Below, in pieces: positions 22,280 through 62,810 of a stretch of DNA of 64,000 bases (position 1 is the stretch's first letter; the number at the start of each line of letters is the position of its first letter). This stretch comes from Hydractinia symbiolongicarpus (lineage: Eukaryota > Cnidaria > Hydrozoa > Anthoathecata > Hydractiniidae). The notes beneath the pieces are model-generated. The model saw only the letters and a list, made by a program, of their open reading frames with translations, had not been told where the DNA came from and did not search any database. The stretch is from positions 34,664,501 through 34,728,500 of the forward strand of contig NC_079879.1 of assembly GCF_029227915.1 (NCBI RefSeq), given 5' to 3'. A program made the position numbers and the translations under genes.

Positions 22280-22286
22280 TAACATT

Positions 22287-30320: not shown

Positions 30321-30663
30321 AGAAAAGCTAGAATGACAAAAAAATATTATACTCTTGTTGTCTCCCCACAGCCAATACCCAGCGTTATCGTACTGACATA
30401 TTTTTCAGAAAATATGTGTCGCATTTCGGTGAAGATGCGTCGTATTTCGGAGAAGATATCTTGCTCTTGTCGGCCACCGTGCAAATGACTCTAACACCAG
30501 ATATTTCTGACGCCTGCCTAAGCTACCCATCTGAAATTTCCAAGGGGTTAGGCAGTCACTCCTAACTATAAATATGCAACAAATGTCTTGTTCAACTAGT
30601 GAAGAAAAATACATAGTGACTAATAGCTTCGTATATTGAAATATAAAACTTATTAGCTAACTA

Positions 30664-30987
<324 letters not shown>

Positions 30988-31048
30988 TGTAAGTAGGATA
31001 GGGTGACATGCTTTACCTTAAACACGCACATAAGGGGGACGTGAAATT

Positions 31049-36360: not shown

Positions 36361-36954
36361 GTATGCTCCATTTATGCAAAATAGAAAAATGGTGCATTTT
36401 TATCCTATTTATATAATATTTACTTATCTTACTTACTTAGTTATTACTTATTCTATTTTTATACTTTTATTTTTATATTTTTTATTTCATTCTATTTATA
36501 TAATTTTAGATATTTTAGCATCATCAACGAAGTCAATGCATCATCTAGAGACTCTTGAAGCTTTGATTATTAACGATATACGTCCTAAGTTAAACACATA
36601 GAATGAATACAAAAGCCATACTTTAGTAATAAATTTTTAATTATTTTGATTTATACGGATAGTGTCTCATGGGAGACTTGTCAATTGTTTAATTTTCTTT
36701 TCTCTTGTACATTTGAATTTTTACTCGGTTGTTGATAAAAATTTTTTACTGTAGAAAGGAGTGATACGCAATTTACATTTTTTTATATAACGGATTTTAA
36801 TCTTGTTTTTATATATTTTAAACCTGAAGATGATTTTAGAAGATCGAAATATATTGTCAATACAAAATTAAATTGCTCAATGTTGGTTCTATACTCGTAT
36901 AATTCTTATTGTAAACCCAGGTGCGCATTGAAATTAAGATGTATGTTTTAACAC

Positions 36955-38335
36955 AAAAAAGAATGTGTGCCCCATTTCTGAAAAAAATAGATATATTGAT
37001 ACAGCCTTTATTCATAACGCAGTTAAACAACTCAAAATAACCTGTAACATTTAAGTCAAAAAATATGTTGTGTGCCCCATTTCTACAAAATAGAAAAATG
37101 TTGTATTCTTATTCTTCATCCAGTTGCACATTGAAATTAATCTATAACGATTCAACACAAAAAATAGAATGTGTGCCCCATTTCTGTAAAAACAGAAAAA
37201 TTGATACTGCCTATTTATAACACATTTGCACAAATCAAAATAACCTGTAATGTTACAAGTCAAAAAATATGTTGTGTGCCCCGTTTCTACAAAAATAGAA
37301 AAAAAAAACAATATATTCTTGCACAAATCAAAACAAGCTGTAATGTTTTAAGTCAAAAAATAAATTGTGTGGCCCATTTCTACAAAATAGGAAAATCGAT
37401 ACAGCCTTATTTATAACACCGTTGTTCAAATCAAAATAACCTGTAACGTTTAAGTTAAAAAATACAATGTGTGCTCCATTTCTGCAAAATAGAAACATCG
37501 ATGCAATATGATTTGTAACACAGTTGATCAAATCAAAACAACCTCTAGCATTTTAAGTCAAAAAATAGAATACGTATGCTTCAGTAATGCAAAATAGAAA
37601 AATTGATACAGCCTTATTTATAATGCATCTGCAAAAGTCAAAATAACCAGTAACGTTTAAAGTCCAGTATCCACACACGCAAAACGTTCCGCAGACCGAA
37701 CCGGATAACGGTAAAAATCTGTTCTGTTTCGTTCCGTTCTGTTCCAGTACGTTAAAGACCGAATATTAATTTCTACGTTGCTACGACAATAATAACAACA
37801 TAATATGGATAAAAAACATGTGCTTGCTGCTGCCGGTCGTTTCTTGATGTCACTTGGCTATATTTTGTAGCTTGTTATTTGTCAAAAATGCTAGTCGCTC
37901 CGCGGACCAGAAAAAAAGTTAAAAACATTTCAACTGTCTTCTAGCTTCTTGGACTGCACAATTTTCCGTTTCGATTGCGTAATGAGCTAACAATGTGCAT
38001 GGGCAAAGCTTTGTTTTTGTTTGATCCGGTCCGGTCCGCGCAACGTTTTCCGTGTGTGAATCTTGGCCTTAAGTCCAAAAAATATGTGTGCCCCATTTCT
38101 GCAAAAATAGAAAAATCAATATAACAGCCCACAGTTGCACAAATCAAAATAACCTGTAATGTTTTAAGTCAAAAAATAAATTGTGTGCCCTGTTTCTACA
38201 AAGTAGAAAAATGGTGTATATATACTTATTCTAAATCCAATTGCACATTGAAATTAATCTGGACGTTTCAACACTACAAATAAATTGTGTGCCCTATTTC
38301 TGCAAAATAGAAATTTGATGCAGTCTCATTTATAA
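36955..38335. repeat. Degenerate outlying units of the 105-bp satellite
   Basis: Diverged units with GTGTGCCCCATTTCTG, ATAGAAAAAT and AAATCAAAATAACCTGTAA continue to about 38,335. They are interrupted by unrelated DNA (36,361-36,954) and by the MITE at 37,661. Minus-strand ORFs here arise from the repeat. Confidence 0.8.
37661..38068. mobile_element. MITE with TIRs of about 45 bp inserted in the satellite
   Basis: The left end holds TCCACACACGCAAAACGTTC then GCAGACCGAACCGGAT. The right end, reverse-complemented, holds TTCACACACGGAAAACGTTG then GCGGACCGGACCGGAT. The flanks are TTAA at 37,657-37,660 and 38,069-38,072, a possible target duplication of the piggyBac/Kolobok type. There is no ORF. 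The termini are GC-rich against an AT-rich background. Confidence 0.65.
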
Positions 38336-41252
38336 TTATACAACCTACATTTTTAAAGGTCGTACTACCTCGCCAGGCACGGATGTAGGCAATTTTTTTA
38401 CTATGTCAAAGCGTAAAAAAAAAAACAAAAAAAACACATAAAGTTTGTTTACAAAATTCAACTTGCTCAGTCCATAAGAAATTTAAAAAACATTAACAAA
38501 AATAACTGAACAAGTAAGACAACAAATTAAAATGATCTAATTACCCAAGATTATAAACCCCTTAACATACACAGGCGTAACTAGGAAATAAAATCTTAAA
38601 AATTTAAAGTATATAGATTCTCTGACCATCTCTTTTCGAGGGCAAAACTTGTAACCATATACCTTTTCATAATTTCTCCAGGCACCGCTGAATTTAGCGT
38701 AACTATGTTCGCCATTTTTATATGAAGGCAACCAAAAACTGTTGACCAATAGCATAGCAGTATTGAGCAACATTACGTCATATATTGGACGCGGGAAAGT
38801 TCTTCGCGCTTTGAGCTGCCAAAGTTTCTTGTGTTTTTATTTTCTGTTTCTTACTTTCTTTGTTTTCTTTTATTTTCTTGTGAATTTAACTAAAACTAAC
38901 TTCACTGTGATAGCTAGCTAGCATAGCTGAGTGTAAAAACAGTTTTTCTTATTTGACGCCTTATTATTCTCTTGGTCAAGGTCATAGCTTTCAATTTCAG
39001 TTTGCACACATCAACAGCTTTTACTACTGTATATTGTCATGGTTGAAATATGGTTGTTTGAATTGCACAAAATACTGGAATCTTGTGTGTGTGTTTTCTG
39101 GTCCAAATTTGAATTTTTGCACAGAATAATGCACATATTCTTGTGCACTTAATGCTCATCTGTCATTGCTTGTACAAACCAGCTTGATACAGCAAGCTTA
39201 CATTTATTGACTCACCACAAAAAAATATAACCTTCCCTTGAAGTGAGAATAGTATTACAATTTTAACTATATGTCTATTGATCAAATTAGATCAAATACA
39301 GCTTTTTCGAAAACAATATCATCAAACTATCTTGCTAATTTCCCAATGATATTGTTCTGCCCAATCTTGAAACGGCCCCCGTCTTAGCCAAATCTGGCCT
39401 GGTCAATTCAACAGTACTGGCAAATTCGTTTTTGATGTACATACCCCAAATATATTTTTTTAATGTGCCTGAGAATGTTTGTAGGGTCTTGCAAACAACA
39501 GAGCTTGTGTGTCACATCCATGGTCTCCTGCCTAATCTTTTGACGAACTGGGCATTTTTATGTCCAAATATTGGGCAGTCTCCTAAGATTGGGCAGAACA
39601 ATACTATCACAGTATATCTGAATTATGTTTTCCGTCGAATTTAAGCAAATCTTGTTTTGATTGATAAATTAATGTTGTCATAAATTATTCGATTTTCTGA
39701 CTTGGTTAATTGTGGGATGCTCAGCTATAGTAATGATGTTTTACTACAATAAAAAGGTATATGTTTTGCTTAATTTTTTAAACAAATGTATAGTCTTTTC
39801 CTTGCAAAATTTGGAGTTTCTTTAAATACAGTAAACTCTCCTGAATCTCTTTCGGTAAGTTGCACCCCGCTATGTATTCCTGACCCACTCACACATTTAA
39901 TTAATCATTTTGTAAATTATTGTGGTTGGTTCTATTCAGCTAAGACATGATTGCCGCAACTACAAACACCCTGAAATATCTATGTATATGTTAAAAAAAG
40001 TTGATTATGGTAATAGGTTTTCATGTGAAACAGAACAATATATTATGGTCCATGTTTAGCATATTTAAATCTTTGTTACTAGGTAAATTGACAATAAATA
40101 AAAGTTTGCATCAATGTCAAAAGTAAGTTTTTTTTCTTGTAGAAAAAAGTACTTGATCCTACTATGGGCTAAATTTCACCATGCAAATGATGGTGGTGAA
40201 GAATTCAATAGAATAATTATTCGATTATAATTAATAAATTATAAGTAATACTTAACAGGCTTAATATAAACGTACTATATTTTGACTTGTATTTGGCATA
40301 AAATCGCTTTGTCTTTATACTACCATATATTTACATATATATATTATATATTTAACGTGGCCATATTTCTTTTTAAAGTGATGAGAAAACGTCTCTATGA
40401 AGCTTGAAAGTTGTATTTCTTTTTAAAATGACGAGAAAATGTCTCTACAAAGCTTTAACGTGGCCATATTCCTTTTTTTAAGTGACAAGAAAACATTTTG
40501 TATCATGTTATAAAAAAGTTTGTATGGACTTCGTTTGTACTTTTTACTTTAAACAAAGCACTTAATATTGTTTTTGTTTAGCATAACGAAGTATATAATG
40601 TACTTTGTTTCGTTTGTTTTATGACACAAAAAAACATACAAACATTTTAAGACAAAACAAAAGAGGTAGCAATGATTTTTTGTGTGAAGGTAATTTTACA
40701 AAAACACACATTTAATACCCACAATGATTTAACTTTTCTAATATGTCAGGCCCTTTTTTGAATAAAACTATGCCAGAGCCAGAAAAAGCACCCGCTAAAA
40801 AATTACCAGTGCAATGTGAATATTTGCCAGTGTGAATCACACTTAACTATTTTTTTTTACCACAACGTTTCGTTATTTAAGATGTATAGAAATGATTTTG
40901 CAGACTGCCTCATATTAGGTGCGCGATCGCGCGCATGCACCTTGGCACGGTCCTAAAATGTGTTAGACAAGTGAATAATAACTCGCCTAAAATAGGAACT
41001 CATTCCTTATGTGCCTGAACAATCAAGCTCCTAAATAAAACTGTAGCGAGTAATATTATTCAAAGAAATCACATGGAAATAAAAACGCAAAAAATGGAGC
41101 GCTTCTTTGTAGACTGCGTAATTCTTCAATTACGCAGTCTACAAAGGAGGTAATGAATAAAAGATATTTATGTAGAAATGAGACATGAGATCCTAAAACT
41201 TGTGTACATTTAAGCGGTACTGTATATGTTATTACAATAATAAAACATTATT
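38336..41252. other. Intergenic or 5' region with no supported exon
   Basis: No exon that I can defend. It holds an imperfect tandem repeat near 40,355-40,490 (TTTCTTTTTAAA-TGA-GAGAAAA-GTCTCTA units), a CpG-rich palindrome near 40,921, and the hairpin at 41,105. The missing 5' exon or exons of the SET-recombinase gene may lie here. Confidence 0.35.
41105..41146. repeat. Perfect 19-bp hairpin
   Basis: CTTTGTAGACTGCGTAATT, loop CTTC, then the exact reverse complement AATTACGCAGTCTACAAAG. It lies about 100 bases before the TTAA element. Confidence 0.75.
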
Positions 41253-42075: not shown

Positions 42076-42079
42076 TCAA

Positions 42080-42480
42080 GGGTTACCTCCCGCAAAAAAT
42101 TAAGTTAAGCTCATATGAAAGATCTTTGAAAGTTCTCTAGAAATCCTTTTATTTTTTTGAAAAATCTTTATCCGTTTCTGAGATATTTGTCTTAAAAGTT
42201 GTGCTAATTATGCAAAATTATGATGCCATGAGTATGAATTGAGCATAATTATGATAACTAAATGTTAAAATTTATGTAAAAATGTTCAAAACGCGTCAAA
42301 GTGAATGGCTAGGAAACATTTTTAACTCTCTATGGCTTGTCATCATGCATAATTAGTAAATCTTCTTAGTCCAAATTCTAAAGAACCAATCAAGAATTTT
42401 TAAAAAAATATTCAAATTCCTAGACAGCCTTTCAAGTACTTGTATATGCAGTTACCTTTATTTTTCGCGGGAGGTAACCT
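42080..42480. mobile_element. TTAA-flanked MITE-like element 2
   Basis: Inverted ends GGTTACCTCCCGCAAAAA (left) and GGTTACCTCCCGCGAAAAA (right, reverse-complemented). The flanks are TCAA (42,076-42,079, shared with element 1) and TTAA (42,481-42,484). No ORF. Confidence 0.55.
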
Positions 42481-42704
42481 TTAAAAAATTTTAGGTAACA
42501 TAAAAATTATTCAAATTTTTGTGAAATTTAAATTTAATTTAGTAAAATTATTTTTTACTATATGAAAGGAATTTTATTTGTGATTCTTTAAAGTACATCT
42601 ACGTTTCTTGAAAAAAATAAAAAAGTGACCTGGCTGCCAAAGGGTGAAATTCTACTTTTCATTTACTTCAATTTTTATTTGTTCATTTTTGTATTTATTT
42701 TTAG

Positions 42705-43505
42705 AGACGGCAGAATAAGCGTGAGACAGACCCACGTTCTATTTCAAAGTATTATTGCAAACAAAAAGCAGATCAAAGTGGTTTCCAGAAATTATTCATC
42801 AATGACAACATAGGTATACGTCTATTATGCTTCCAAATAGGGTGTGAACTGTTTTACATTATTATGATACAACTTTTTTTATAAGGTTTTGGAGTGTTTG
42901 CTACAAAAACATTTCAACATGGTGAATTTCTTCTTGAGTATGCTGGAAATTGTATTAGTAAAGTTGAGGGTGAAAAATTGCAATCTACATATCCTGATGA
43001 AGCTGGTTCCTTTTTTTTTTTTTATAATAACAGTTGGTAAGCAAATTGTACATATATGTTGTGATTATTTTAATATCCACAGCAGTTACTTGCGTAAAGA
43101 TTGTTGGAAAGAAACTTTATTTACGAATTTTGTAAAGAGCACAGGATAATTTTTGCAAATAAATGCCGGCAAAAAATATTTTCTTTTGAGAAAAATGGAA
43201 AATTTGATTTTCATAAAATATTCCGGAAAATTGTCACAAAAGTCAGTTGTGAAATTTGAAAAGTACTCTAGGTAATATACTGCAATTTTAAGATTATTTA
43301 TAATAGCATTGATGCAACTGAGAACACACAGTTTGGGAAATACGTTAATGACAGCAAAAATGCCAAAAACTGTTGCATGAAACCGATATATGATGATAAT
43401 GGGCATTTGCATCTTTGCCTGTTTGTTTTGTGTGACAAAGTCATATCTATTGGAGAAGAGTTGAGATATTCGTATGGAGATATGAAAGAACTTTTTTGGA
43501 GAAAA
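42705..43505 (+). CDS. SET-domain exons of the fusion gene
   Basis: Three exons. Residues 1-36 give a lead-in of the type GFQKLFINDNI. The SET domain follows: GFGVFATKTF with the GxG motif, GEFLLEYAGNCI, FFFFYNNSCIDATEN (the Cys codon is split by an intron), GKYVNDSKNAKNCCMKPI, HLHLCLFVLCDKVISIGEEL and RYSYGDMKELFWRK. The pattern is closest to KMT5A/SETD8-like enzymes, which methylate lysine using S-adenosylmethionine. The usual NHS triplet is NDS and the usual YDYG is YSYG, so activity should be tested rather than assumed. A 13-T run at 43,011-43,023 encodes four Phe and part of Tyr, and is a likely site for frameshift or sequencing errors. Confidence 0.75.
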
Positions 43506-43769
43506 GTGAGTATCTTTGTCACTTTTTTGTTATTTCTTTTTAGTTAGATTTTATAGTTGTGATGAATCAGGCTTCTCATTTTAAAAATAGGTGCTTATGT
43601 GATCAATCACATACGCCAGTTCACCAAGTTACGCGATGCAATTGTCCTCTAAAAAGGCATTCCTGGAATGCCTTTTAAAGGACATCAACTTCCATTAAGG
43701 ATACGGTAACCCCCTTAGACACATTCTCAGTATATTTAAAATATCTTCTCTGCTTGCTTTATTAACTGT

Positions 43770-43802
<33 letters not shown>

Positions 43803-46800
43803 TCTGAAAGCCAAATAAATTATCTCTAGAATGATGATAAAATATTTCCATAAAAAAATCCAAGAAGGAGAAAAAAAATTATTTACAAAAATTCACCTTT
43901 CTAGTATATTTTACCAAACACTCCCTTCAGTAAAATTTTTGTTCCTTGAAAAACATATGGTTGCAAAGATCTTATTCAGCTCTAAATAACTTTGCTTTTT
44001 TTACTCAAAACAAAACGTGGTTCAAAAAATATAGCATATTTTGTTTTACAACAGCTGTTTTATGACTGATTTATCAATTTTTAAGTATATGATGGATCAA
44101 TAGCTCGATATTTTCTCACTTTTGCGCTAAAAAAAGCAAAGTTTTGTAGCCAAATAAATTGTCGCAACAAACTTATTTTCGTAGAATTTCGACAAAATAG
44201 AGGGGAGTGTTCAACAAAACTATGTACTGTTACGTTGGAAAATTTTATTTCGAGAAAATGCAATTCAAAAATTTTGCACTGCAAAAATCATGCTAAAGGA
44301 ATGTTATGTTTGTGAATAATTAATAAGTCATGAATATTTTATTAAACACAGAGGTAAAGTGTTTTTGCAGAACCCCTAGTTATTACCCTAGTTACCCCTT
44401 AGTTATCATACAGGTTAAATATATTAGAGGAATTTTAAATTTTGAGCACACACAGATTTTTTCTCATTTTGTAACTTTTAGGCGACTTCAACTTCATTAG
44501 TTGTTCTACAGGCTCGACAGACTCTAATTTTCACGAAAACAAAAAAATAATATCGGCTAAAACGTTTTGTAACAGAAAATCTGTTACATATTCGTTTTTA
44601 GCGAAGAATTTTATTATTTCTGCAAGAAGAATGCAGTTATTTACATAATTTGATAGTTAAATTTCTTTAGAAATTGACAATGTCTTATAAACATGTGTGA
44701 CAATTTAAGCGATTTTAAAACAATTTGAACCGAAACGAATTTAACGTAGATGAAACGAATTAATTCTTATTTTTGTGAAAAACTAATGGGAAATGAATAC
44801 AAAATGATTTGGAAATGATTACGAAATGAATTTCAAATCAACCAAGCGAGTTGAAACGGTTACAAACGATTTTTTTGATTTTTTTTTTTTTTTAACCGCC
44901 GTTGTTAGTGTGTATTTCTTTATTTTTGTTGTTGTTCCAACCATACATTCTCAACAAAATTATTTTTATTTTGCCAACCGACCGTAAGTTACTATCGATT
45001 TCTCCCGTAGAACATTGGAGTCGCCTTAACAATAATTATTTTTGATTCTTTTTTGAAAAATATCAGAAAAATATTCGAAATTTTTTTTTGAGAACTTCAA
45101 CCGTTACTTCTATTATGTTTAGAACAAGGAGACTGCTTCACCATATTTTGCAAGTATTGATGTTGTTACCAAGCAGGGAGTAAGTTTTTTTGTAATATAT
45201 ACATTTTTCTTTTTTTCACTAGAGTAACTGCTATTTTTCTTTTCTTTCTTTTCAGTTTGTTTTATGCGATCCTGGGAATGTAATTGTGAGTATCCAATCA
45301 TAGATTTTGAACTTTTTGTTCAAAAAATTCTTGTGTTTATAATAAAACCTTTTTTGTGATTTTAGAATAACCAAAAAAAGAAAATTTATTCTGAACATGT
45401 AAGCCATCTACATTTTTAAGGCAAAATGTTTTTGTATCAATATTGTAATCTTTCATGATGTCCACGTTTTGGTTCCTGTTATTAGCCATACTAAAAAGTT
45501 AATTTTGAAGAAAAGCTTTCACGATATTAGCTCTAATTACTGTACAAGTCATTTTGGAATAATTTTAAGTTATAATCAGTTATATATCCACAATTTTCAT
45601 TTTCTCTTTTTCATTTAAATATTTTATGTTGTGTAGTTTTTAAGATTGGAATTTTGATATGTGTCAAAATGACTTAATTTTATCCAATTTTTGAAAATGA
45701 TTTGTTTCACCAATATGTTATCGATTTCAATTTTTTGTATTTAATAACAAGAGTTAAACTGTAGCACAATATTTATGTTTTTACCATACAACAAAAAATA
45801 TGTTGCTAATGAAGCAATCTTTTGCTCCTCCATATAGACGAAACATGCACAAAGATAATTTTTGAGAATCACTCCCATAAATAAAACAAAATTATTTCTA
45901 CTGTACAGTAATTTTTTGCTAATATTGCACTTAGGATGATGAATTCATTTCTGGTAGTGCAACAACAGAGGAAGATGTCAAGGAATGTCTGGACAAGGTA
46001 AGATATATACTTTAATTATGTTGTTTTTAACGTTACATGTATCTTAAAAATATTGAATTATTTTTATTAGATTCATGATTGCATTCTTCAAACAGAAGTG
46101 ATAGGTTTGTAATGTGTGAAAATTTCTCAATTACGTAACACCCTTTCCCATGCTATCTCTAAAAATGTGTTTGTTTCGGGTAAAATGGCTGGGTGAAATA
46201 TTATAAGTACAAAAAGTTTATGAATTATTTATAAATACACATTGTATGCCAAATCCATATAATTTGAAATAATCAGTGTAAATATTTTAATTGACACTCT
46301 TTATCTAATTAAATTCTGATTTGGTTTGTTTGTTATGTTATTAGGTTTATAGGTTGATTTATTGGGTTTGTGTATTTTCACGTGTCATGCAGATTTTCAC
46401 ATGCTTTACGCAGAATGTCAAAAATATGACAATATGATACTGATTATTTTTTATGTAAAAAATATTATCGCCTACCTAGCTGTTAAGATATTTTAATGTG
46501 TCGGTTACAGAAAACAGACATATTTTTATGGATGGTCTCACTTTAAGTGCCTAATTCCAGTAATTATAACATTATTTTCCTAATTTGCTTACACTTATCT
46601 ATTTTATGCTGTACTATAGGTTCTGGATTCTGTAGATACTGTTTTGACTGATTTAATTCAAATAGAACTTATGCAGGGTAAATTTATTTAGGAGGGTCCA
46701 TCTGGAAAATTAATCTCATTCTTCTTTGGGATGATATGAAAAAGGTTAAACAAAGATATTACAACTTGGTTAAAAAAGGAAAATCCAGAGGCAATATTGA

Positions 46801-49800
46801 ATTGTAACTAAATAGTTTAGAACCAGGAACTGAACAATATATAAGTTTCTGAATAATTTGAGTAGCATACACCCTGAACTGCAATAGATATGTATTATAC
46901 ACATGTTATTTACTTTTGAATACTCCTTACCTGATCTATTTGTTTTAGATTATGGGGAAAATGACGAAGAAAAATGTGATCAAGTAGTTGTTCGAAAAAA
47001 AGACGGGAGTATTGAACTAAAATCTGACACCTGTGTAAAAGATAAAGATGATGTGAATGCAAAGTTTATTGATGTTGTTGATGTATATGAACCCAAGAAT
47101 AACGATCCTGCTCGTTTATATAGTAAAAACATAGGCAAAGGAAAAGATTCAGTTGCTATCAATGGTCAGAATGTTGATTTGTGTGAAAAATTAGAGGAGG
47201 AAGTAGAGGAAAATATTAAATGCAAAGGTTTTAATGGTGGTTATCAGACAAATAGTGCTACTGTTTACATGCAATTAGAAAATATGGGAGGGCAGAAATA
47301 TTGTGTTCATAAACTCCAACTTAAAGAAAATGTTGAAAACACATCTATCATACAGGATATGGAAATAGTTGGTGAAAATAAAGAACAAGTTGCTGCTGAA
47401 ATCATTACAGATATTGTCAGTGTTATAGATAGAAGTGTCACTAATGACAAGGTTCTTGATTTTGTTGATGTATGTGAACCCAAGGGCAATAATTCTGATA
47501 GTTTACACAATCAAAGTGTAGGTGAAGGCAAAGATGCAGTTTTGGTCAATCGTGTTGCTGGTAGTGTGAGTTATAAGGTGGATAATCCTACTGTTTATAC
47601 ACAAGTAGAATCAAACGAAGGGGACAGATATTGTGGTGATGAACCTCTACATGGACAGAATGTTGAGGAAACGAATATTGCTGGTATACAGGATATGAAA
47701 ATAGGTTGTGAAAATAAAGAACAAGTTGCTGAGATCATTGCAGATGTTGTCAGTGTCCAAGGTCGAAATTACAAGAGTGCAGATGTGGTTGCATCAGGTG
47801 TAAATACGTACAAGAACAGTACTTACCAATCAAAAAAAAAGATTCAGGAAAATATTGGCAGTGGTGTAAATAAAAAGAATGTCATTGGTGGAGATAAATT
47901 TGCGGACTACTACAAGGACATAGATTTTGCCAAGCTGGATTGTAGTGACGATGATGTGAAAATTACTTATCCGGTATGTATGCAATTCATGATTCCGTTT
48001 AAAGTATAATTTTTAATTGTATTGATGATAAATATTTATGTTTCAGGAAATTGAAATTGTCCCTGATTTCAGCAGTTCTGACAGTGAAACAGTAAGTATT
48101 GAAGTTCCAGTAATTCCACTAATAATACTTAAAAATTTTAAACTTACTATTCATTTTTTAGTGTTCCACTTTGAATGGTAGTAATGAAGAAACAACTTTT
48201 CCATTAAAAATTAATTTTAGGTAATTATTGTTTTCAATTAATACAAAAAGTGATAAAATATTACAAACGAAACTATCAAAAATTGGTGTTTTTATGGTGT
48301 CATTCACATGAGATTTGCTGTAAACGACGTAAACAATGCTTTTTTAGTCGAAATTAAAGTAACTTATTTAGTTCTTTAAAGATAATTTTGTTGTAATATT
48401 TCTATGTTTATTTTTTAGAAATGACAAAACTGAAACACTGGTATGTTAGAATTCTCCCATATACATTTTTGTTATAATGAAGAAGAACTATTTTGTTCAT
48501 CACTAACATACTGCCAGGCAGCGAGTGGGATTCGAACTCCGGACCCTAGAGTTGGGAGCCAAAGACAAAACCACTACACCACACTACGGCAATATGTTAG
48601 ATAGTTTATCTGGATGGTGCATATACATAGGTGAATCTTTATTGCGATATAATAAAGATTCACCTATGTACATTTTTGTTTTTGAAGATTTTAAATTGTG
48701 AGGAGGAGATATAGATAGCACCTGATTTAATATAAGAAATGCTTAGACTATTACCGTTATAATTATGCTATAAAGACATTGCACATTTTTTTTTATTGAA
48801 ATACAGTGTAGTTGAAGTCCACTAGAAAGTTGTACGGTATGATAATTATAGTAATAAATTGATGCTATTTTATTTTTAGACAAAAGTATTGGAGAAGTTC
48901 GTATGTATTCCATCATTACTCATATATTTTTTACATTGCAGCATTTCTAATTTTAATTCAATACAAATGCCGGTATATTTTCAGCAAATGTTAGTTCAGG
49001 TTAATAAAATTTTCATGTTTTTTTTTGCTGCTAAAATATACTGTCATCGATTTACCTAAATGTTGAAAATTATGAATTGTTGAAGTGAAAAAATGAAAAA
49101 TTAACTTCATGGTAAAATTACCTGACAGTTAATTTTGGTTTACAAAGGTTACATTGTGATGCACTGGTTACAATTAGAGAAAATTATAGGAAATTCTTCA
49201 TTTATTCAGAAAATCATTAAATTTAAAAGATTAGATTTTATAAAACCAAATCTTTTTCTTGTGCTTAGTAACTTTTCCATTTAACGCCAATTGAATGGTT
49301 TATTGGTTGAAAACTTATTTTTGTAGAACTTTTGTTGAAAATCATGAAATATTGGCATTTTGTGAGAATTTAATTTCTCGTATTTGACCCAAACTTGCTT
49401 AATTTGCCTTGTGCATTGAAGGCATGTAATTTCAATTTTTTTGTTTTTATTTTTTTTAAAAATTTATTTTAAAAGTACTTGTTTTGTCAGTTGTCTGATG
49501 TTATGACTTGGTAATAAAGCATGCACCACCAAATGATTACTTAATTAAAGCAATATGTAGTGTAGTTCCAGCATTCATGCCAAAGTAAGAAGAATGTTAA
49601 TTCTGGGAGTCCAATTTTCTCATCTCCTGCATTTATAAGGTCAAAGTCCAAAATCAATTCCATTAGGTCCCACGGTCAATAGTATTAATTAAATACACCT
49701 AATAGTTACTCTTTATTAATGTTAGATGAAAGTTGATCTTGAAGAAATAGAAACTCTAGCATCGACAAAGGTATTGTATGTTTGTAATAACTTTTCATAC

Positions 49801-52800
49801 ATCCTTGCATAGCTTTTTTTATCTCTGGAAATTTTGCAGGTGTGTCAAGTTGCTGAACATACGCAGACCATTAGGGAAGTCAGCTGTTGTGAACAAGTGA
49901 GTTTTGTGATGATGCTTATTTAATTTACAATGATTTGTTCAGCCCTTTTGAACTACCAACAAGTTGCTTCCTAATTTATTATTTTTAATTATCAATAGTA
50001 TTATTTAACACAAACAGGTTTCAGTGAAAAATGATTCTGGTTTGGAGATTGATGAGGATTTAGACATTGTGAATACTGATAGTGAACAGGAAACAATTGA
50101 AGCCGAGTCTAAAAAACTGCAGGTACTATTATCGATGCATTTTAAGATTGTGTAAACTTATATACTACTGACTGATTAATACTTTTCAATGCTATTTTAT
50201 TTAAATTTAGGATTATTGATGCAAGGGTTTATGTTTTGTGTTATGTAGCAATTCTAGAATCATCTTATCTTTTTATTTCAGAAAAAAAGTCCTTACAAAA
50301 AACCGTATAGAATGTGCATTTATTGTTCTATAATGTCTTCAAAATTGAGCAGACACATTAAAAAATGTCATAAGGAAAATGAGAGAGTGAAAAATGCACT
50401 AAAGATGACTAAGGTGAAGCAAATTGAGGAATGGAAAAAAATTAAAAGGGAAGGAATTTTAATGTACAACAAGTTGCAAGCTACCACAGAAAATCCTATT
50501 TTCCAAGAAGAACGTCAAAGAAAGAAATACTTGGAATTGCAACGTTGTAATTTATGCTCTGCTTTTATCTCTAAGCGTTTCTTTGCCAGCCACAAAAGAA
50601 CGTGCATGAGAAGACAAGATGCTGTCCCAACAGGCTTGCCATTGTCACTGGACTTCCTTCCAATGTCACTCCAAATGTCGGATCAATTCAAGGAAGTCAT
50701 TTTGGCCAAGCTTAGAGATGATCCCGTAGGTAAGTTATCATTTTTATATTTACGTTACGAGCTTTTTTCCATACTTTGTTCATAGTTTAGCAATTGATTT
50801 GTAGGACAGCTTTATGGTGATAACATCCCTGTTCTTTACATTTGTTACCAATTCATGAAATTTTCATTGTTCTTTATTAAATTATTACGAATAACTACAG
50901 TAATCAAAAATAATAAAAAATTGCAAAAGAAACTTCTGGGATTTAAGGAGTTAAAAAATACTTGTACTATTCATTAAAAGTCCTTATGTATTTCATAGAA
51001 ATCCTTAATTCATTCAAATAATTATTTAATAAACATAATCATGTTACATCCTAGATATGATCAAGTGTAACATTTTTTTGTTGTTTTTTATGAGCAAAAT
51101 AGTAAAAAAAGTGTTCAATTAAAGTTGTAGTTTAATTTAAAAAAAATATATGAATTGATCTTTTAGATTATTGACCTAATTCATAAAATTATGTTTTTAA
51201 AAGGTTTTGGGTTTATTTCGTTAAAATAAATACTCACAAATGTTTGACAGAAAAAAAAAATGTAGGTTTATTTAATTTGTATTCACGCCCCCAAAGGTTT
51301 AAGAACATCTATTTCAATGTACAACCTTCCACTGTACATCAAAATTGATGCAAATAATGTTTTTTTCAATTTTCTAAACCTTTAAACACAAAATGAATAT
51401 TTGCAAATTTAATTTGCCTTGTTTAATAATAGGAAATATATGTCGCAAAGATGAAATGATATTACGAATTGGAATGAAGTTGTTTGCAAAGCTTGTAGTC
51501 AAAAAAGAAAAAGCAGCCACCGTGAATAAATCTGTTAGGGGTCATATGCGAGTGTTAGGTAGCCTGTACCAATCTTTTAAGAGGATGAATGGCGTTTGTC
51601 ATGATCATGGTAATTTGTTAGATATGTTTGTGCGAAAGAATTTTACGTGTTTTACTGATGCCATTGACGCTGTTACTTTGAATGTTGATCGTAGTCTTAA
51701 GCCAGGACTACGCCAGAATGTTTTTTACATCATCAACAAAAGTGTAAAAATATTGTATGCTCATCAATATATGTTAGCTAACGAAGAGGAGGCCAGTGAA
51801 ATTGAAAAATTTATGGTATGCTATAAAGCCAACGAGGATTGCATGGTTTCCTCTGCACGATACGAGCTTGAAAAAAAAAGGCTAGTTAAAATAAGAAAAC
51901 CATGTCAGTTGCCTTTGGAAAGCAACATTGAGAAAATACATCAACATATTCTCAAGAGAATGGGTGAACTACTGTGTGTTTTTGAGTTATGGACTGCTCA
52001 CTCTTTTGTTGAACTGAGGAACTTAGTACTCACACGACTAACATTATTGAATGGGCGCCGTGGTGGGGAAACAAGTCGCCTCCTAGTAAAAGATTGGTTA
52101 GAAGCAGAAAGCGATAATTGGATTGATCAACAACGTCTTCAGAGTTTGAATGAAGCTGACAAACTATTAGTGAGTTCACTAAAAATAACCTACATGACGG
52201 GTAAAGGAAATCATCATTTGGTGTCTGTTTTATTTCCAAACGACACTACTTCTGCTATGAAAAGGTTAGTTGATCCAAAATTTAGATGCAAGGCTGGTAT
52301 CGACAAAAATAATGATTTTGTGTTTGCCAGCACACAGCTGTCATCTTTAAATGTGTCTGGCTGGCATGCATTGAAAGAAGTCTGTAAGAAACTAGAACTT
52401 ACCAATGTGGAAATTATAAATGCAACCACTAATAGACACCGCGTCAGCACTTTATATGCTGCGTTGGACCTGCCACAACAGGAAAGACAACTGTTCTACG
52501 CCCATATGGGTCATTCTGAAAGCATGAATAAAGATATTTATCAAGACCCATTAGCTTTAATGGGAGTCACAAAGATTGGAAAACAATTAATAAATCTCCA
52601 TGCAAGCGGTATGTATTTATTTGTTAGGGAGGAGCCTTTCTGTATGGAATAAAATTGTGGAAGTGGCACGCATTCTAGGTAACAACTTTATCATAGATCA
52701 TGAGTGGTAAATTTAATTTTTTTCTTGTTTATTGAGATTTAGGAAACCAGGATATAATGGAAGACTTGCCGGGTTATGTTTTAGTAAACCTTTTTTTATA

Positions 52801-55206
52801 AATTTTTGTCGTTTTAACCACTGTTTTTCATTTATTTGTTTAATTTTTTCTTATAATGTATTTAACAAATGTTCAAATCAGCTAATGTTATTTCACGATT
52901 ATTATGATCGAAATAATACGTGTTCCAAATTTGATTTCATTAAAAAATTATTAAAAGATTGCAGATGAGCAAAATGTAGAATGACTTTTCATGATTAGCA
53001 AGTCTTTCAGTGTTTATAACTTGATTGTTTATAGATAACGGTCATATTGAAGAAACTGATAAAAGTTTAAAAACATTTAAAGACAAAACTCATACAGGTA
53101 TGTTTGCTTTTTCTAATGTTGTCTGGTGCAAATAGAGAAAATTTCTGTTAGTTACAAAACTCGTTATTTTGTTCTTTTTATTAGTCATTGTTTTTGATGA
53201 AATTTTTTCAAATCAATGTGTGATCCAAAACCTAAAGATCTTCCCCATCATTGTTTTATATTGTTTGGAAAATTACCTTGAAGCTGCTCAATGGACTACA
53301 TAGCAGACTAATACTTTCTTTCTTTAGAAGACAAGAAATTGGCAACTAACTATGCAGTGACAAGTACTCCCGTAAGAACATCAGCTAAAGGTTAATACTT
53401 CACTGTAGTTTATTGATTCAATCTTTTGGGCCTCAGTGACTTGCAAAGTGTTTGTTTTTTTTGGTTTTTATTCAGCGACAAAGACAAAAAGATCAGTGGG
53501 GAAAAGAGTGATGATGCTGTCGAACAGTTCATCTGATGAAGAAGCTATTGAATCAAAAAATGGTTAGTTTTAAATTTAATTTAAAACAACGTCTGATTTA
53601 TAATACCAACCATGACCTTGTTTTAGATATACGATGGTTTTTTTGTTTTTGTTTTTAGTACCAGTTGAAGCTAGGAAGTATCCTTTGCGTGGTGAGTGGT
53701 TTGATTTTTGATTTTTTTTGTCAAACAATATTTATTCAACCTGTCCTACTCTGCGTTGTGGGAAATGTTTATTTATAGAACATTGAATTTGAAAACCAGA
53801 CCTTATTTGTTTTAAATCTCACATAGGTCAATTAAAAATCATATATATAAGTTGTTTTTATAGTACTCTATGCAAAATATATTACTTACCGTTTTTGCGG
53901 AAAATTGTTTAGTATCACTAATATTAAACGTAATATTTTTACAAATTACATGTACTTAACTTTTTTTCACTTACTTAAAAGTAATTGCGAGTTCACCGAA
54001 ATAAAAATGTATTTTTTGTTGACCATTTGATTGTACATTTGACTTTGAATTATAGGCAGATCAAAAAAAGAAAAAAGTACGTTAAAATTACTGGTGAGTA
54101 TCCTTTCAAGAGTCTTTCTGTTTTAATTAGTTATTTTAGTTTTCTCAATAACACTTAGACAGTTATGAAAATTATTTATATACCGAGAAATATCAACCTG
54201 GATTGTTTAAAATTTATGGGATGTACAAGTATTTTTTGCAAAAGATGTATTTCATGTTTATGAATATCCATTTCTATCTAGATGCCCAAATTAGTGATGA
54301 TTCATGTGATCCTACTTCCTATGAAGGTAAGTGATGTAAAAAATTAAGTTTAAAGAAACCTTTGTAGGTTGCTTCGTGTGCAAATTAGATTTTAAAGAAT
54401 TTGGCGTCTTCCCCAATCTTAAATTCTCTCAGAAATTCAACTTTCCAATGATCCTGGAGATTAAATATGTTGAAAAATGCTTAGATCTTTCAGGTGTCAT
54501 TAACTTTACTGATTTTTGAGTTGCCATAGTATAAAAACGCTGCTATATATAAGTTATAAAGGACAATATTTTTTCTGTTAAAGCAATAATAGTTTGAATG
54601 GTCGTCTTGCTAACCAGGAGTTATAATTTCCAGGAATTTTCTAGTTTAAAAAAACAACAAGATTTTATTCCAATAGATAAAGAAGAGAATGAGAGATTGA
54701 AATGCAAACGTAAGTTGCACACTTTTAGCGCTTCTTCATACGGTTTAGTTAAACCACTTTTTTAGGTTTGATATTAACAAAACTTATCTTATTGTTGCTT
54801 TTATACTTAGCTGTCAAATCCAGTGTCAAGTGGACTCCGGAATTAAATAAAGTGTTCTTCGAAAAATTTGGTTGTTACGTGCGTCGCACCAATGATCGAC
54901 CATTTCCAGGTATCAAATAATTTAGCTTTTGTTCGATGGTTTTTAAGTATAGGTAAATAGATTGTTTTGAACAATCACTTGCAAATGAGGCATAGTTGCT
55001 TAAAGCAACTATTTTGTGTCTTTTGTGCGAGTATACTCAATCATTCTTGCATTATTTTAGGTCGACTGGAAATGGAAAATTTTGCAAAAAGTTACTTTGG
55101 ATCAGCCAATTTTGCCTTCGCTGTGCGAACAAAAATAAACAACGAGCGGAAAAAGTTCGATGACATAAAGAATAAAAGGTTGAAAGAAATTGGACTAACT
55201 AGTTAA
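42705..55206 (+). CDS. SET methyltransferase / zinc finger / tyrosine recombinase fusion protein (5' end not found)
   Basis: Twenty-eight exons join in frame to 1,435 residues plus TAA: 42705-42813, 42886-43036, 43307-43505, 45123-45179, 45256-45285, 45366-45398, 45935-45997, 46620-46677, 46949-47973, 48047-48091, 48162-48220, 48419-48440, 48880-48900, 48985-48999, 49726-49770, 49840-49896, 50018-50122, 50282-50729, 51433-52608, 53035-53097, 53328-53390, 53476-53562, 53659-53691, 54056-54076, 54282-54326, 54677-54709, 54811-54909, 55061-55206. All introns are GT-AG and phases match at every join. Order: SET (about 37-150), acidic linker (170-700), C2H2/C2HC fingers (710-806), tyrosine recombinase (about 848-1,235), Myb-like end. 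The initiator Met is upstream and unidentified. I remember fish and cnidarian multicopy relatives of each part. The likely site of action is the nucleus. It is either a domesticated Crypton-like gene or the gene of a large intron-bearing element. The smallest exons (48,985; 54,056) are the least certain. Confidence 0.75.
43506..45122 (+). other. Intron of the fusion gene
   Basis: A 1.6-kb intron between the SET exons and the linker exons (donor GTGAGT, acceptor TTTAG). It holds an imperfect hairpin of about 19 bp at 43,644-43,683 (AAAAGGCATTCC, T, GGAATGCCTTTT) and a short (AT)n run at 43,775-43,802. No exon is seen inside it. Confidence 0.5.
45123..50122 (+). CDS. Acidic linker exons of the fusion gene
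   Basis: Fourteen mostly tiny exons around one 1,025-bp exon (46,949-47,973). The encoded stretch is rich in Glu, Asp, Asn and Val with no recognisable fold. The large exon contains an internal duplication: VDVYEPKNND and VDVCEPKGNN, GKGKDSVAINGQ and GEGKDAVLVNR, QDMEIVGENKEQVA and QDMKIGCENKEQVA, spaced about 125-130 residues. Later exons carry short acidic Ser-rich patches (PDFSSSDSET, DEDLDIVNTDSEQE) that resemble casein kinase 2 sites. The region is probably a flexible spacer. Confidence 0.6.
48474..48670 (-). mobile_element. tRNA-derived SINE in an intron
   Basis: Read on the minus strand, it has an A box TGGTGTAGTGGT (48,570-48,581) and a B box GGAGTTCGAATCCC (48,527-48,540). A non-tRNA tail follows, ending in TTCTTCTTCA. 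It sits antisense in the intron between exons at 48,419-48,440 and 48,880-48,900. Two more copies lie at 23.3-23.6 kb. Both promoter boxes are intact here, so this is the best-preserved copy. Confidence 0.8.
48624..48670. repeat. Perfect 20-bp hairpin at the SINE head
   Basis: TACATAGGTGAATCTTTATT, loop GCGATAT, then its exact reverse complement. The other SINE copies show only one arm of it. Confidence 0.8.
50282..50729 (+). CDS. Zinc-finger exon of the fusion gene
   Basis: The first finger is CIYCSIMSSKLSRHIKKCH (C-x2-C-x9-H-x4-H). About 60 basic residues follow, then a second finger with CNLC and HKRTC (C-x2-C-x11-H-x3-C). The exon ends at DDPVG, where the downstream recombinase exon continues in frame. 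This finger pair immediately before a tyrosine recombinase domain is an arrangement I remember from multicopy fish and cnidarian proteins. It likely gives DNA targeting. An upstream intron ends in TTTATTTCAG. The frame starting at 50,312 is only part of the exon. Confidence 0.75.
51433..52608 (+). CDS. Crypton-like tyrosine recombinase exon of the fusion gene
   Basis: One 392-codon exon. An N-terminal helical part (the arm-binding or core-binding region of such enzymes) is followed by the catalytic part. It holds LLNGRRGGETSRL with the first Arg (residue 1,057), MTGKGNHH with the strand Lys (1,105), NRHRVSTLYA with the second Arg (1,182), AHMGHSE with the His (1,208), and KDIYQDP with the nucleophilic Tyr (1,217) nine residues after that His, the usual spacing. 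The first His of the HxxR box is Thr. Such enzymes cut and join DNA through a 3'-phosphotyrosine link. Crypton transposons use this chemistry without terminal inverted repeats. No stop or frameshift interrupts the domain. Confidence 0.8.
53035..55206 (+). CDS. C-terminal exons with Myb-like domain of the fusion gene
   Basis: Nine small phase-1 exons encode a Lys/Ser-rich tail (RSVGKRVMMLSNSSSDEE, ISDDSCDPTSYE). The final two exons give VKWTPELNKVFFEKF, CYVRRTNDRPFP and VRTKINNERKKF. The Trp plus helix pattern resembles a Myb/SANT-type DNA-binding module found at the end of related recombinase proteins. The frame ends at TAA 55,204-55,206, followed by AT-rich 3' DNA. Exon uniformity (phase 1 at every join) supports the model. 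The exact donor of the 54,056 exon could also be 17 bases further on, which would break the phase. Confidence 0.6.
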
Positions 55207-56392: not shown

Positions 56393-57449
56393 CGTGACTT
56401 TTTGCCGTGTTCGGAAATTCAGCTTAAAACAAGCTCGCACACGGCAACGCGTATTTTGTTATTGCGCGTGATGGCACTTATTTTAAATCGTCGAATTCGG
56501 CACCTATTTCGCTTAAGACAGATGGTGTATGGGCAGATAGTGATTGTTAAGTACCTTAAATTTGTTTTTTTGAATGAGACTTGTTTAAACGACCAACAGT
56601 GTATTCAGATTTCGACGAGGGAAATGTAAACTTGGCGCAAACAGAGGAAAGTGCATGACGTATCAGGTAGTCTCACTTGAAATTAGTTTATATTAAAAAT
56701 ATACTTTCAATTTCTATTCTTATTCCTAACTTTCCTGCATGACAAATCTGGAGAAAAAGCATTTTTTGTTTATATCGAACCCCCGTCTTAAAGTTCTATG
56801 TGACTTGCTGCAGTGCAACAACGAATTTCGACTTTTTATTTATTTTATTTTATTATATAATTTATAGTCTTGGAATGATGGCTATTAATCATGGCTATGT
56901 GCTAGATATTCCAGTTAACATTAGACACAGCTACTAAACTAAAGCACCAAAGCTAGCTAGCTACCTAGCTATATATATATTAGCCGAAGTAGTGGACCAG
57001 AAGATGGAGTGTGTGATGTTGTGTTTAATTATTCCATACCACTGTGTGGTTAATAGATAAAGGTATATTTTGCTTACTACTAGTGTGATTTGGTTTTTAA
57101 ACACTTAAAGTATTAGGCTTGGAAATTTGTTGATTCCAGATACCAATTTGTTACCCACTCAGTTCTTGCAAACTGTTTACTGTTTACCATTATTCTTTTT
57201 TACAAAAACGTCTCTCTTCCAACTTTCCAGGCCTAAAGTTAGCTAAGAGTCAGAGTAGGTTACTTTATAGCTAGCTTATACTGTTTTAAAAAGCAAGATT
57301 TAGATAATAATTGAAGAGATAATGATTATATAATGTTATTTTTGTAAATATTCCATTGTTTAGTATGTATAGCTATATCATAATTGCTGACGTAAACTAG
57401 AAAGGCAGATAATACACAGTCTAGGTAGGAATGGTATTTTAAAAATAAT

Positions 57450-58130
57450 ATGCATTGGTGGAAAGTTTTGCAGCTTATGTTAGACAATAAAATTATTAGT
57501 GCAGTTTCGCTTGATATATTTTCAGCTTTAAAAATGAGTATTAAAAATAAACAAGTTTATGATCTTTTTTCTTCATTGAATAAAAAAAGCATTAAAGAAG
57601 TAAGTGATGGATTTGTTTTACTTGGTGTTGAAATAACATGTCCAGAAAAAGCGTTATATACAAAAGTTAAAAGACTAGTAGAGAAAGTAAATGGTCTGAA
57701 AAAAAGGAAAGCTAATTCTGCTTTGTTGGAAGCTGAGTTTAGTGTTCCAGTGCAAATTACCCCACATCAGCGATCTATTGATGCGGCTAGTTCTAGAAAT
57801 GAAGTTTTGTTTAAAGAGAAAATGAAACAATTAAAGGAGGAAAACAAAAGTTTAAAAAGAAAGTGCGAAAATTTTCAAGAATTAGAAATTCAATACAACA
57901 CACAAGTCGAAGAGGTTAAGAAACTTAGTAACGAGCTATTTGTAGCAATGAAGGATGAAAATAAGTTGACAGCAGAATATCGTCGTATAAAGAACAATTA
58001 TCTTGAAGTAGAGGAAAAACTTAGAAATGTGGAATTGAAATTTAAAGATAATAGCAAAGCGAGGGCAGATAAATCAAATCTACAATGTCGGATCTTGGCC
58101 CTAATAATCCTTTATTTAACTCACAACTGA
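57450..58130 (+). CDS. Coiled-coil ORF, N-terminal piece of a broken element protein
   Basis: 226 codons. Residues 1-100 are a mixed helical region (FVLLGVEITCPEKAL). Residues 120-200 are a strong Lys/Glu coiled coil (KMKQLKEENKSLKRKCENF). The last residues, from about NQ at 210, are out of frame relative to the next ORF. The ORF overlaps the 628-codon ORF by 46 bases, one frame back. The overlap looks like the scar of an internal deletion rather than a designed gene pair. The first in-frame ATG is at 57,450, with a TAG eight codons before it. Confidence 0.55.
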   Translation: MHWWKVLQLMLDNKIISAVSLDIFSALKMSIKNKQVYDLFSSLNKKSIKEVSDGFVLLGVEITCPEKALYTKVKRLVEKVNGLKKRKANSALLEAEFSVPVQITPHQRSIDAASSRNEVLFKEKMKQLKEENKSLKRKCENFQELEIQYNTQVEEVKKLSNELFVAMKDENKLTAEYRRIKNNYLEVEEKLRNVELKFKDNSKARADKSNLQCRILALIILYLTHN

Positions 58131-59971
58131 AATCTTTAAGGGAAAAATTATTACCAAATGTTGTAGAAAACTGGAATTATTTAAGCGAAACACAAAAAAC
58201 GGACATGACCGATATGGGAAATTTCTTTTGCAAATTACATCTTCTGGCAAATTTTGCCTCAGAGGCAGATAAAGTTCTGCATTCATTTGAGAGAATGGTC
58301 CTCTGTGATGACTATGAAACAGTATTTGCCTTCAATAGTGCAAAAGAATCTTCTGCTTCTAGATTAGTGCGTACAGCTTGTAAAGCTTTTCATGTGCGTG
58401 GAAGTGACGAATGTGGAGTAGCATCGTATTTTAACTCGTTTTTAGCTGGTCGCAATCAGAAATCTTACTTTGTACCATTTATTGGAAATCGTTTTAACAT
58501 ATTGTTTTATAACGCTGCTGCATTATATTACCATCGTGATGCAGTCGTATCTTTTCTTTCATCATGGCCTGATCCTAATAATTTACTGAAAGCTGTAAAT
58601 GAAGACGTATCAAATAAGTTGTTTCTTAGTGAAGTCAGAGCACTTGGCATTATTGATAAGTTATTGACTGGTCCATTGTGGCGATTAATAGAGTCTTGTG
58701 AAAGTATCCTCGAAATAAATCCATACCTGTTACAACTTAAAGTCAAACTATCTGCACTCTGCAACAATTGTTCATCACTTTTATCTGGCAGTCATATTTT
58801 CCAAGAGGATGGTATTATTGTGCACAACAAAGATGAATTATTTATCAAGCTATTTGAGGATACAGGTGATGATGAATTGGATATTCTAACACAGCAAGCC
58901 CTTGAAATTATTTGCCATACAATTCTCATCATCTTAGAGCGTCAATGTAAGGATCAACTGCCTGGAGGAAAGTACTGGAGCCCCAGTCAGATAATAAAGG
59001 AGACGTCATCAATTGTACCAGTAACCAATAAGGGTTCTGAAAGTGACTTTGCAATTTTGGATTTGTTAGTGAAAACGAAGCCAAGTGCCAATGTTGAAAC
59101 ATTGCAGGCTTTAACCATGTGGTCGCGTAACAAAACACTTGATAGGTTTGAACAGAAGTCTTATGATGAGAAAAAAAGTATGATGGAATCAGCCAGACAT
59201 AATGTGGAAAAAATGAAGGCGAAGTATAAATCAAGGAGAAAAGAACTGTTGGAGGAGAGGAAAAGGAAATTGCTTGCTAAACAAGATATGAAAAAGAAAG
59301 CTGAAGAGAAAATAGCATTGAAGAAAGTTGAAGCTTTTAACAAATTGCTTGAGCTAAATGTCCAGGCTTGGATATTTGATGAACTGAAAAAAAACATCAT
59401 GGATATATCATCACAAAAACGTGCAGAAGTTTTGCTAGCGCAAATGAATTTTTACAGGCATGTTATGCCTTTCAAATGCAATTCCAAATTGTTTAACAAA
59501 ACAAAACAGAGTGGAAACAAAAGAGTTGATTTGTCTTGGGAAGAGCTTCTTGAAAACTTTGTTAAAATCATGCATGTAACATTTTCATCATCTGCAGAAA
59601 AGGTAACAAAGGATAACCTGAAGTCGAAGGAAGATAGAGATGAAGTAGTTGCAACCCAAAAAAAGGAACTGATGGAAAAGATCAAGAAAGAAAGGATGAA
59701 AAAACTGTCTGAACAACAAAAAAGCAACAAACTCCCTTCCTTCATCAAAGACCCTGATTGTTTAGTTGGTTTACACATACGGCATCATTTAAAGGAAGAA
59801 GATGAAGAGGATGCATATTGGTGTAAAGGGGAAATTCTAAGTGTAGCAAAACGACATTCCAATCCTAAACGCACGTTGTTTAATGTAGTATATGAGTCAG
59901 AACCTGAGACAGTTTGGAGTTTTCCAATAATTTTAGATTTTGAGAAGGGAGACGTTATTATGTTATCTTAG
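58085..59971 (+). CDS. 628-residue protein of a multicopy cnidarian/fish family with Tudor-like C-terminus
   Basis: Intact frame from an ATG that I doubt is the natural start: the five preceding codons also read as family-like sequence (IKST before MSDLGPNNPLF) until a stop at 58,070. Landmarks: MGNFFCKLHLLANFASEADK (45-63), ASRLVRTACKAFHVRGSDE (91-109), FIGNRFNILFYNAAALYY (132-149), LGIIDKLLTGPLWRLIES (187-204), DQLPGGKYW (290-298), SESDFAILD (318-326), NVETLQALTMWSRNKT (336-351), a long basic helix (370-420), and a final module from about 568 (LVGLHIRHHL, YWCKGEILSV, FNVVYES, FPIILDFEKGDVI) that resembles a Tudor/Agenet fold. I remember many relatives in corals, lancelets and fish, with a longer N-terminal region. 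The molecular function is not established. Its position inside the TIR element suggests it is, or derives from, the transposase. Confidence 0.65.
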   Translation: MSDLGPNNPLFNSQLKSLREKLLPNVVENWNYLSETQKTDMTDMGNFFCKLHLLANFASEADKVLHSFERMVLCDDYETVFAFNSAKESSASRLVRTACKAFHVRGSDECGVASYFNSFLAGRNQKSYFVPFIGNRFNILFYNAAALYYHRDAVVSFLSSWPDPNNLLKAVNEDVSNKLFLSEVRALGIIDKLLTGPLWRLIESCESILEINPYLLQLKVKLSALCNNCSSLLSGSHIFQEDGIIVHNKDELFIKLFEDTGDDELDILTQQALEIICHTILIILERQCKDQLPGGKYWSPSQIIKETSSIVPVTNKGSESDFAILDLLVKTKPSANVETLQALTMWSRNKTLDRFEQKSYDEKKSMMESARHNVEKMKAKYKSRRKELLEERKRKLLAKQDMKKKAEEKIALKKVEAFNKLLELNVQAWIFDELKKNIMDISSQKRAEVLLAQMNFYRHVMPFKCNSKLFNKTKQSGNKRVDLSWEELLENFVKIMHVTFSSSAEKVTKDNLKSKEDRDEVVATQKKELMEKIKKERMKKLSEQQKSNKLPSFIKDPDCLVGLHIRHHLKEEDEEDAYWCKGEILSVAKRHSNPKRTLFNVVYESEPETVWSFPIILDFEKGDVIMLS

Positions 59972-62103: not shown

Positions 62104-62243
62104 AAAGGGGACACAAAAAATGTTGCTATCGCCGAAACCCCATAAAACATACCCTAGCTGTGTCAGTATCCCAAATAGGTCTCGAATATTAAAATTGTTT
62201 TGAGCAAAAAAGCTTTGTTCATGAAATATGAGGTGTCCCCTTA
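62104..62243. repeat. Inverted AAAGGGGACA sequences beside the (AT)n tract
   Basis: AAAGGGGACA near 62,104 and TGTCCCCTTA near 62,234. The same motif pair occurs at 31,049-31,074 beside another (AT)n tract, suggesting that both tracts belong to copies of one dispersed element in opposite orientation. Confidence 0.35.
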
Positions 62244-62285
62244 TTATACATTTCGAGCGGGGTCCCCCTAACGTGGAATAAAGAA

Positions 62286-62568
<283 letters not shown>

Positions 62569-62810
62569 TTTAATTTATGCTGAATAGTGCAAAAACAAGA
62601 AGTCTGAGACCACGCTTTCGGAAAGAGAAGCCGTTTTAAAACGTACGGTGAAAAAAAAAATGGTTTGTGTTTAATTCATTATATTTTCTTTTTGGAAAAT
62701 TAACATCTCACGAAAAAAATAACACCATCAAAAAAGTCTTTCATCAAACATTCAGAAACAAAAAAAATAAAAAAAAAATATAAAAGTATTGATAAGTTAT
62801 GAGGGCAGGG

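Follow-up and report, generated by a model that had tools for sequence, protein, structure and literature searches.

A Hydractinia gene predicted to join a KMT5A-type SET domain to a tyrosine recombinase in one reading frame

Structure of the gene

We analysed a stretch of 64,000 nucleotides from Hydractinia symbiolongicarpus (NCBI RefSeq assembly GCF_029227915.1, contig NC_079879.1, positions 34,664,501 to 34,728,500 of the forward strand), which we call the window and number from its first letter. It holds a gene whose predicted polypeptide begins with a KMT5A-type SET domain, continues with two zinc-finger motifs and a predicted tyrosine recombinase, and ends in a conserved C-terminal module. 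A sequence-only reading of the window had proposed 28 exons that join without a phase conflict, and this was borne out when the chain was re-derived manually and joined by script: between 42,705 and 55,206 the 28 exons, with AG/GT borders, give 1,439 codons and a single terminal stop, with no internal stops and no phase conflicts. A protein search with the product returned P0088, isoform X1 of the H. symbiolongicarpus gene LOC130649644 (1,431 residues), at 99% identity across the region searched. By predicted splicing, a single gene with a single reading frame that joins SET to a predicted tyrosine recombinase is thus confirmed, and the match to P0088, together with the same design in three phyla, upholds the fusion claimed earlier.

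P0088 begins with MSKRRQNKRE, and at 40,114-40,122 the window reads ATGTCAAAA, which codes MSK and matches the first three of these residues, with GTAAGTTT after it. Because of this agreement we place the start exon there, one of 10 candidates listed. The start of the gene therefore probably lies some 2.6 kb upstream of the first exon proposed earlier, and the model comprises 29 exons. Compared with P0088, the full model of 1,442 residues shows 24 substitutions over 1,425 aligned positions, plus two splice gaps, to which a few of the substitutions are adjacent; 19 of the 28 exons start with a stretch that is identical letter for letter in P0088. The exon 46,620-46,677 is missing from P0088. 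In exon 24 the donor GTACGT at 54,077 preserves the frame of the window, whereas a donor at 54,094 breaks it before the C-terminal module; P0088 uses the longer form of this exon, and within an A-rich run (54,056-54,093) the window DNA differs from that reference in length, which shifts the frame. From the differences to P0088 the window DNA was judged to be another haplotype or to come from a very close species. The features of the gene are as follows.

40114..40122, + strand: likely start exon, coding MSK, donor GTAAGTTT (from the candidate list and the P0088 start)
42705..43505, + strand: SET domain of KMT5A type, three exons (42705-42813, 42886-43036, 43307-43505); PF00856 E 3.5e-12, KMT5A structures E from 3.7e-17
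45123..50122, + strand: linker, fourteen exons, of which 46620-46677 is absent from P0088 (exon chain and P0088 alignment)
46949..47973, + strand: largest linker exon, with an internal 134-nt repeat (47033-47166 / 47420-47553, 70% identical)
50282..50729, + strand: exon with two CxxC...H...C/H zinc-finger-like motifs (motifs, and the predicted structure of this region in paralogue P0089)
51433..52608, + strand: exon with predicted tyrosine recombinase, comprising a core-binding and a catalytic domain (from fold prediction and active-site motifs)
52059..52541, + strand: predicted recombinase active site, with codons for Arg I at 52059, Lys at 52203, Thr in the His II position at 52425, Arg II at 52434, His III at 52512 and Tyr at 52539
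53035..54709, + strand: hydrophilic linker, seven small exons, of which 54056-54076 differs in length from P0088
54811..55206, + strand: conserved C-terminal module, two exons, three predicted helices, then stop

In P0099, a relative from an urchin, the repeated linker is much longer than that of the window.

The SET domain

The SET domain proposed by the sequence-only reading is complete: Pfam places it at residues 37-144 of the first 242 residues of the model (PF00856, E 3.5e-12), and in P0088 it occupies residues 40-147 of 1,431. When the domain was searched against solved structures, the best 14 of 94 matches were KMT5A/SETD8 chains (E 3.7e-17 to 3e-15), and the family that follows among the matches listed is EZH2 (E 1.3e-10). 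As judged by these sequence matches the SET part is of KMT5A type, with KMT5A the closest among solved structures.

Do the residues of the domain argue for an active methyltransferase? The window SET has both the GxG cofactor motif and YxY, and among the fused SET domains of the family described below GxG is present in all seven that reach it and YxY in all eight. At the place of the NH pair of human KMT5A, the window and seven of the eight have ND. The histidine of this pair matters in KMT5A. The accessible part of PMC5034662 is silent on the NH motif. Because of the change from NH to ND, methylation activity is not to be assumed, and the domain could instead be a dead or non-histone adaptor, in which ND abolishes methylation while SET binds nucleosomes or a cofactor. 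We consider such an adaptor possible, if somewhat doubtful, since the recurrence of ND speaks for it and the unbroken conservation of GxG and YxY against it. It would be compatible with the explanation that we prefer below, an origin in mobile DNA with the recombinase retained as a working enzyme.

The recombinase domain

The exon 51,433-52,608 has core-binding and catalytic domains in its predicted fold, as well as active-site motifs, and on these grounds the tyrosine recombinase proposed earlier stands, though no Pfam family scored above the cut-off for the window recombinase. Five of the six usual residues are present (Arg I, Lys, Arg II, His III and Tyr). Together with the Thr in the His II position they are residues 209, 257, 331, 334, 360 and 369 of the window translation 51435-52607; the five were assigned from motifs and the order of helices, and the position of the Thr from motif spacing and helix position, not from superposition. 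Arg I, Lys, Arg II, His or Trp III and Tyr are kept in 88 of the 95 relatives that cover the sites, and the same five in all eight relatives with a SET domain above the cut-off, while Thr occupies the His II position in 99 of the 105 relatives that have a residue at it. By predicted fold and motifs, the protein is a member of the tyrosine recombinase superfamily for which DNA cleavage is predicted, and its relatives offer a putative new group of animal tyrosine recombinases.

The family was compared in two alignments, A1 (62 of 113 relatives and the window) and A2 (35), and in a recombinase tree of 30 rows, all picked for coverage or annotation. In A1, none of the 63 members matched DUF3504 at E 0.05, and two touched Phage_integrase (best E 0.0088). 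A profile of the recombinase found no solved structure at E 0.1 or better; a single recombinase sequence gave one match, which we judged to be due to chance. A viral structure library returned 146 matches at E 10, one of them at E <0.001 (10% identity), and several recombinase or integrase entries stand in the top rows of the matches listed.

The sequence-only reading had also called the recombinase Crypton-like. This label is not supported by any profile, DUF3504 included. The Crypton tetrad is R-H-R-Y, with His as the second catalytic position (accessible part of PMC3212892), and in the window Thr stands at the H position, as assigned by spacing and not by superposition. The comparison rests on profiles and motifs, not on a Crypton protein directly. 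We rejected the idea that the recombinase came from a prokaryote, a phage or a virus, with no relative confirmed among 8 viral-contig and 29 genome-contig pattern matches; phage records gave no pattern match to the recombinase.

The zinc-finger motifs and the C-terminal module

The zinc fingers of the earlier reading were recovered as two motifs. The second (CxxC...H...C) was located by script, and the first (CIYC...H...CH), noted by eye in the translation, is also present in the consensus of the family. In the predicted model of P0089, a Hydractinia paralogue whose annotated isoform lacks SET, the two regions form ordered structure made up of strands and a helix.

Across 15 aligned sequences the C-terminal module has four invariant residues (W, P, K and N) and four nearly invariant ones (F twice, E and a further K). 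The module is predicted to form three helices, with blocks at a predicted local distance difference test score (pLDDT) of 84-98 in the model of P0089. “Myb-like” is a fair description of this shape, but as a family assignment it found no backing, since both members searched lacked a Pfam match at E 10. Four weak matches of the module among PDB sequences were not convincing, a Pfam search gave nothing better, and a fold search with the P0089 model was dominated by its recombinase part.

A family in three phyla

The protein search scored those 7,982 candidates that had the most words in common with the query. Of fitting length are 26 relatives, eight of which have SET above the Pfam cut-off: P0088, P0090, P0096, P0097, P0099, P0104 and P0107 in full, and P0092 without the first third of the domain. 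A profile made from these eight adds a partial SET in P0101 and in P0110 and found none in the other 16, six of which are annotated animal proteins. The SET-recombinase proteins come from Hydractinia, the feather star Anneissia, the urchins Strongylocentrotus and Diadema and the abalone Haliotis, to which the JGI-sourced P0110 is added. Some relatives carry further domains. In P0090 (Hydractinia LOC130629325) SET and the fingers are separated by a protein kinase (Pkinase, E 2.8e-28), P0091 has a protein kinase ahead of the recombinase (E 4.5e-16), and P0105 (Amphiura filiformis, a low-quality record) an N-terminal BRCT domain in place of SET (PF16589, E 1.4e-6).

Could two neighbouring genes, one KMT5A-like and one for a recombinase, have been misjoined by gene prediction? 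The join in the window rests on splice sites and annotation, not on transcripts. Against a misjoining, the same domain order is annotated in proteins of Cnidaria, Echinodermata and Mollusca, and P0110, with 1,330 residues and on a contig of at most 9,960 bases, spans the end of SET through the recombinase. Metagenome gene callers do not usually splice, and for this reason P0110 is likely one open frame in DNA. Moreover, long genes of Hydractinia and urchin are alike at both ends (accessible part of PMC10368294). Given the same design in three phyla and in P0110, an annotation error is an unlikely source of the fusion, and we regard misjoined genes as very improbable. A search with residues 1-240 of P0088 returned only P0088 itself (1 hit, 175 candidates) and gives no independent count of fusions.

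In the recombinase tree a branch with support 95/91 separates all seven named cnidarian rows from all eleven named bilaterian rows, and SET is present on both sides of it. Among the rows counted, SET presence corresponds to five changes, with the two partial SETs scored as SET and with rows without name and without SET, P0031 and P0047 omitted. A small and weakly supported tree of the SET domains groups the four Hydractinia rows (81/85). Most simply, SET and recombinase were fused long ago and the N-terminal part was then lost or exchanged several times; repeated gain of SET is a less simple alternative.

Surroundings of the gene

Downstream of the gene, two stop-free frames overlap on the + strand (57429-58130, 233 residues, and 58073-59971, 632 residues). 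Neither has a Pfam family above the cut-off, and they may represent an intron-poor inserted or mobile-element gene. Upstream lies a diverged repeat array with a spacing of about 102 bases and 13 copies of a 45-nt core (36018-38322). Very long TA-type microsatellites, visible as IY-repeat frames, are found at about 21830-22290, at 30657-31000 and at 62220-62590. ARAGORN found no tRNA in 36-62 kb. The same region contains 27 inverted-repeat pairs, the longest of which (137 nt, 72%, 42078-42214 / 42346-42482) lies in the first intron and resembles a small inverted-repeat element; the other pairs listed are at most 32 nt, and no terminal repeats are claimed.

Relation to published KMT5A-like genes

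A 2023 study of Hydractinia embryos reported up to 65 genes similar to KMT5A, most with an N-terminal SET and 22 activated early, and counted 24 such genes in Hydra, one in Nematostella and 61 in S. purpuratus. It found that the long genes of Hydractinia resemble those of the urchin at both ends, and described the genes as an expansion of predicted H4K20 methyltransferases, i.e. as chromatin enzymes (accessible part of PMC10368294). Its Hydractinia species is that of P0088, and its genes resemble the window gene in being long, divergent and multi-copy and in coding a KMT5A-type SET at the N-terminus. These shared features suggest that LOC130649644 and its relatives are the long genes of that study; if so, their unexplained C-terminal end gets a name, a recombinase. 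Neither “recombinase” nor “integrase” is used anywhere in the main text of PMC10368294. The earlier statement that no characterised protein of this design was known therefore holds for the recombinase, which that main text does not name, but not for such genes, which appear in print as a methyltransferase expansion. Three kmt5a paralogues are described in Capitella (accessible part of PMC12153100). A literature search over titles and abstract starts listed no SET-tyrosine recombinase fusion among its matches, by which absence from print is not established.

Origin and possible function

The sequence-only reading had offered two possibilities, a host regulator derived from a transposon and the protein of a large mobile element. 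The protein design recurs, and although the choice is not decided, we lean to the latter side: somewhat the likelier explanation, in our view, is that the family is ancient in animals, arose from mobile DNA and has retained the recombinase as a working enzyme. Selection on DNA cutting and joining is suggested by the active site, which is kept in distant relatives, unlike in DUF3504 genes. A likeness to mobile elements is seen in copy numbers that are high and patchy, in urchin copies that are almost identical (three such genes in PMC10368294) and in the expression of such genes at genome activation. Weighing on the other side are the many introns, the divergent copies, the lack of element termini in the inverted-repeat search of 36-62 kb and the warning of the structure realigner on helical folds.

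We hypothesize that a specific DNA site is bound by the fingers together with the C-terminal module, and that the recombinase would likely cut and rejoin this site via a 3'-phosphotyrosine intermediate, in the manner of known tyrosine recombinases. The SET domain would contact nucleosomes like KMT5A and may methylate histones at the site of the recombinase. A chromatin-modifying domain delivered in this way could keep the copy expressed and accessible, or could quiet the site after joining. The family would have spread as mobile elements, and the window copy need not be mobile at present.

Alternatively, the protein could be a host chromatin regulator from old mobile DNA, in which the recombinase serves as a DNA-binding platform that aims SET in the early embryo, comparable to the transposase of SETMAR in primates. 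The family is intron-rich and multi-copy, the recombinase tree follows the hosts, SETMAR is a precedent (accessible part of PMC6326780), and 22 predicted H4K20 methyltransferase genes are on early in the Hydractinia embryo, although these are not mapped to LOC130649644 (accessible part of PMC10368294). DNA binding alone, however, leaves the cleavage residues kept in 88 of 95 relatives unexplained, and we consider a pure host regulator rather unlikely.

A wider proposal, which we make only tentatively, is that the mobile-DNA origin defines an ancient animal class whose recombinase carries its own histone methyltransferase and, in Hydractinia, also a kinase. The genome-activation burst in Hydractinia and the urchin expansion of “KMT5A-like” genes would then be element expression and not an expansion of host enzymes, and one protein would find a site, rewrite its chromatin and move DNA. 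If our reading is right, many published “H4K20 methyltransferases” of early Hydractinia embryos and the similar urchin set would have to be reinterpreted as recombinase genes, the SETMAR design would have a second, older and more widespread case with the cutting residues still kept, and it could be tested directly whether a chromatin-writing recombinase acts at its own integration sites.

Comparison with known systems

In KMT5A the SET domain lies at the C-terminus of a short protein (accessible part of PMC10368294), whereas in the window family it is N-terminal in a long one; KMT5A has the NH pair, and the window SET has ND. The window recombinase is 12-15% identical to XerH, integron integrase and Cre, from which its family differs by Thr for His II and by large extra domains on both sides. 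The Crypton/DUF3504 genes (KCTD1, ZMYM2/3/4, QRICH1, WOC) are likewise animal genes with a tyrosine recombinase-type domain. The DUF3504 genes have lost Tyr and the second Arg (accessible part of PMC3212892), while the window family keeps both, and animal Cryptons have no C-terminal domain, while the window family has one.

SETMAR (Metnase) is similar in that SET is joined to a DNA-moving enzyme, combining a chromatin mark with sequence-specific binding. It consists of the Hsmar1 transposase and an H3K36-methylating SET and is about 50 million years old (accessible part of PMC6326780). The enzyme joined to SET in the window is, by fold and motifs, a tyrosine recombinase and not a mariner (DDE) transposase of the SETMAR type. 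Going by the titles and abstract starts listed in the literature search, SETMAR belongs to anthropoid primates, whereas the design of the window, a predicted tyrosine recombinase with a KMT5A-type SET, is found in three phyla.

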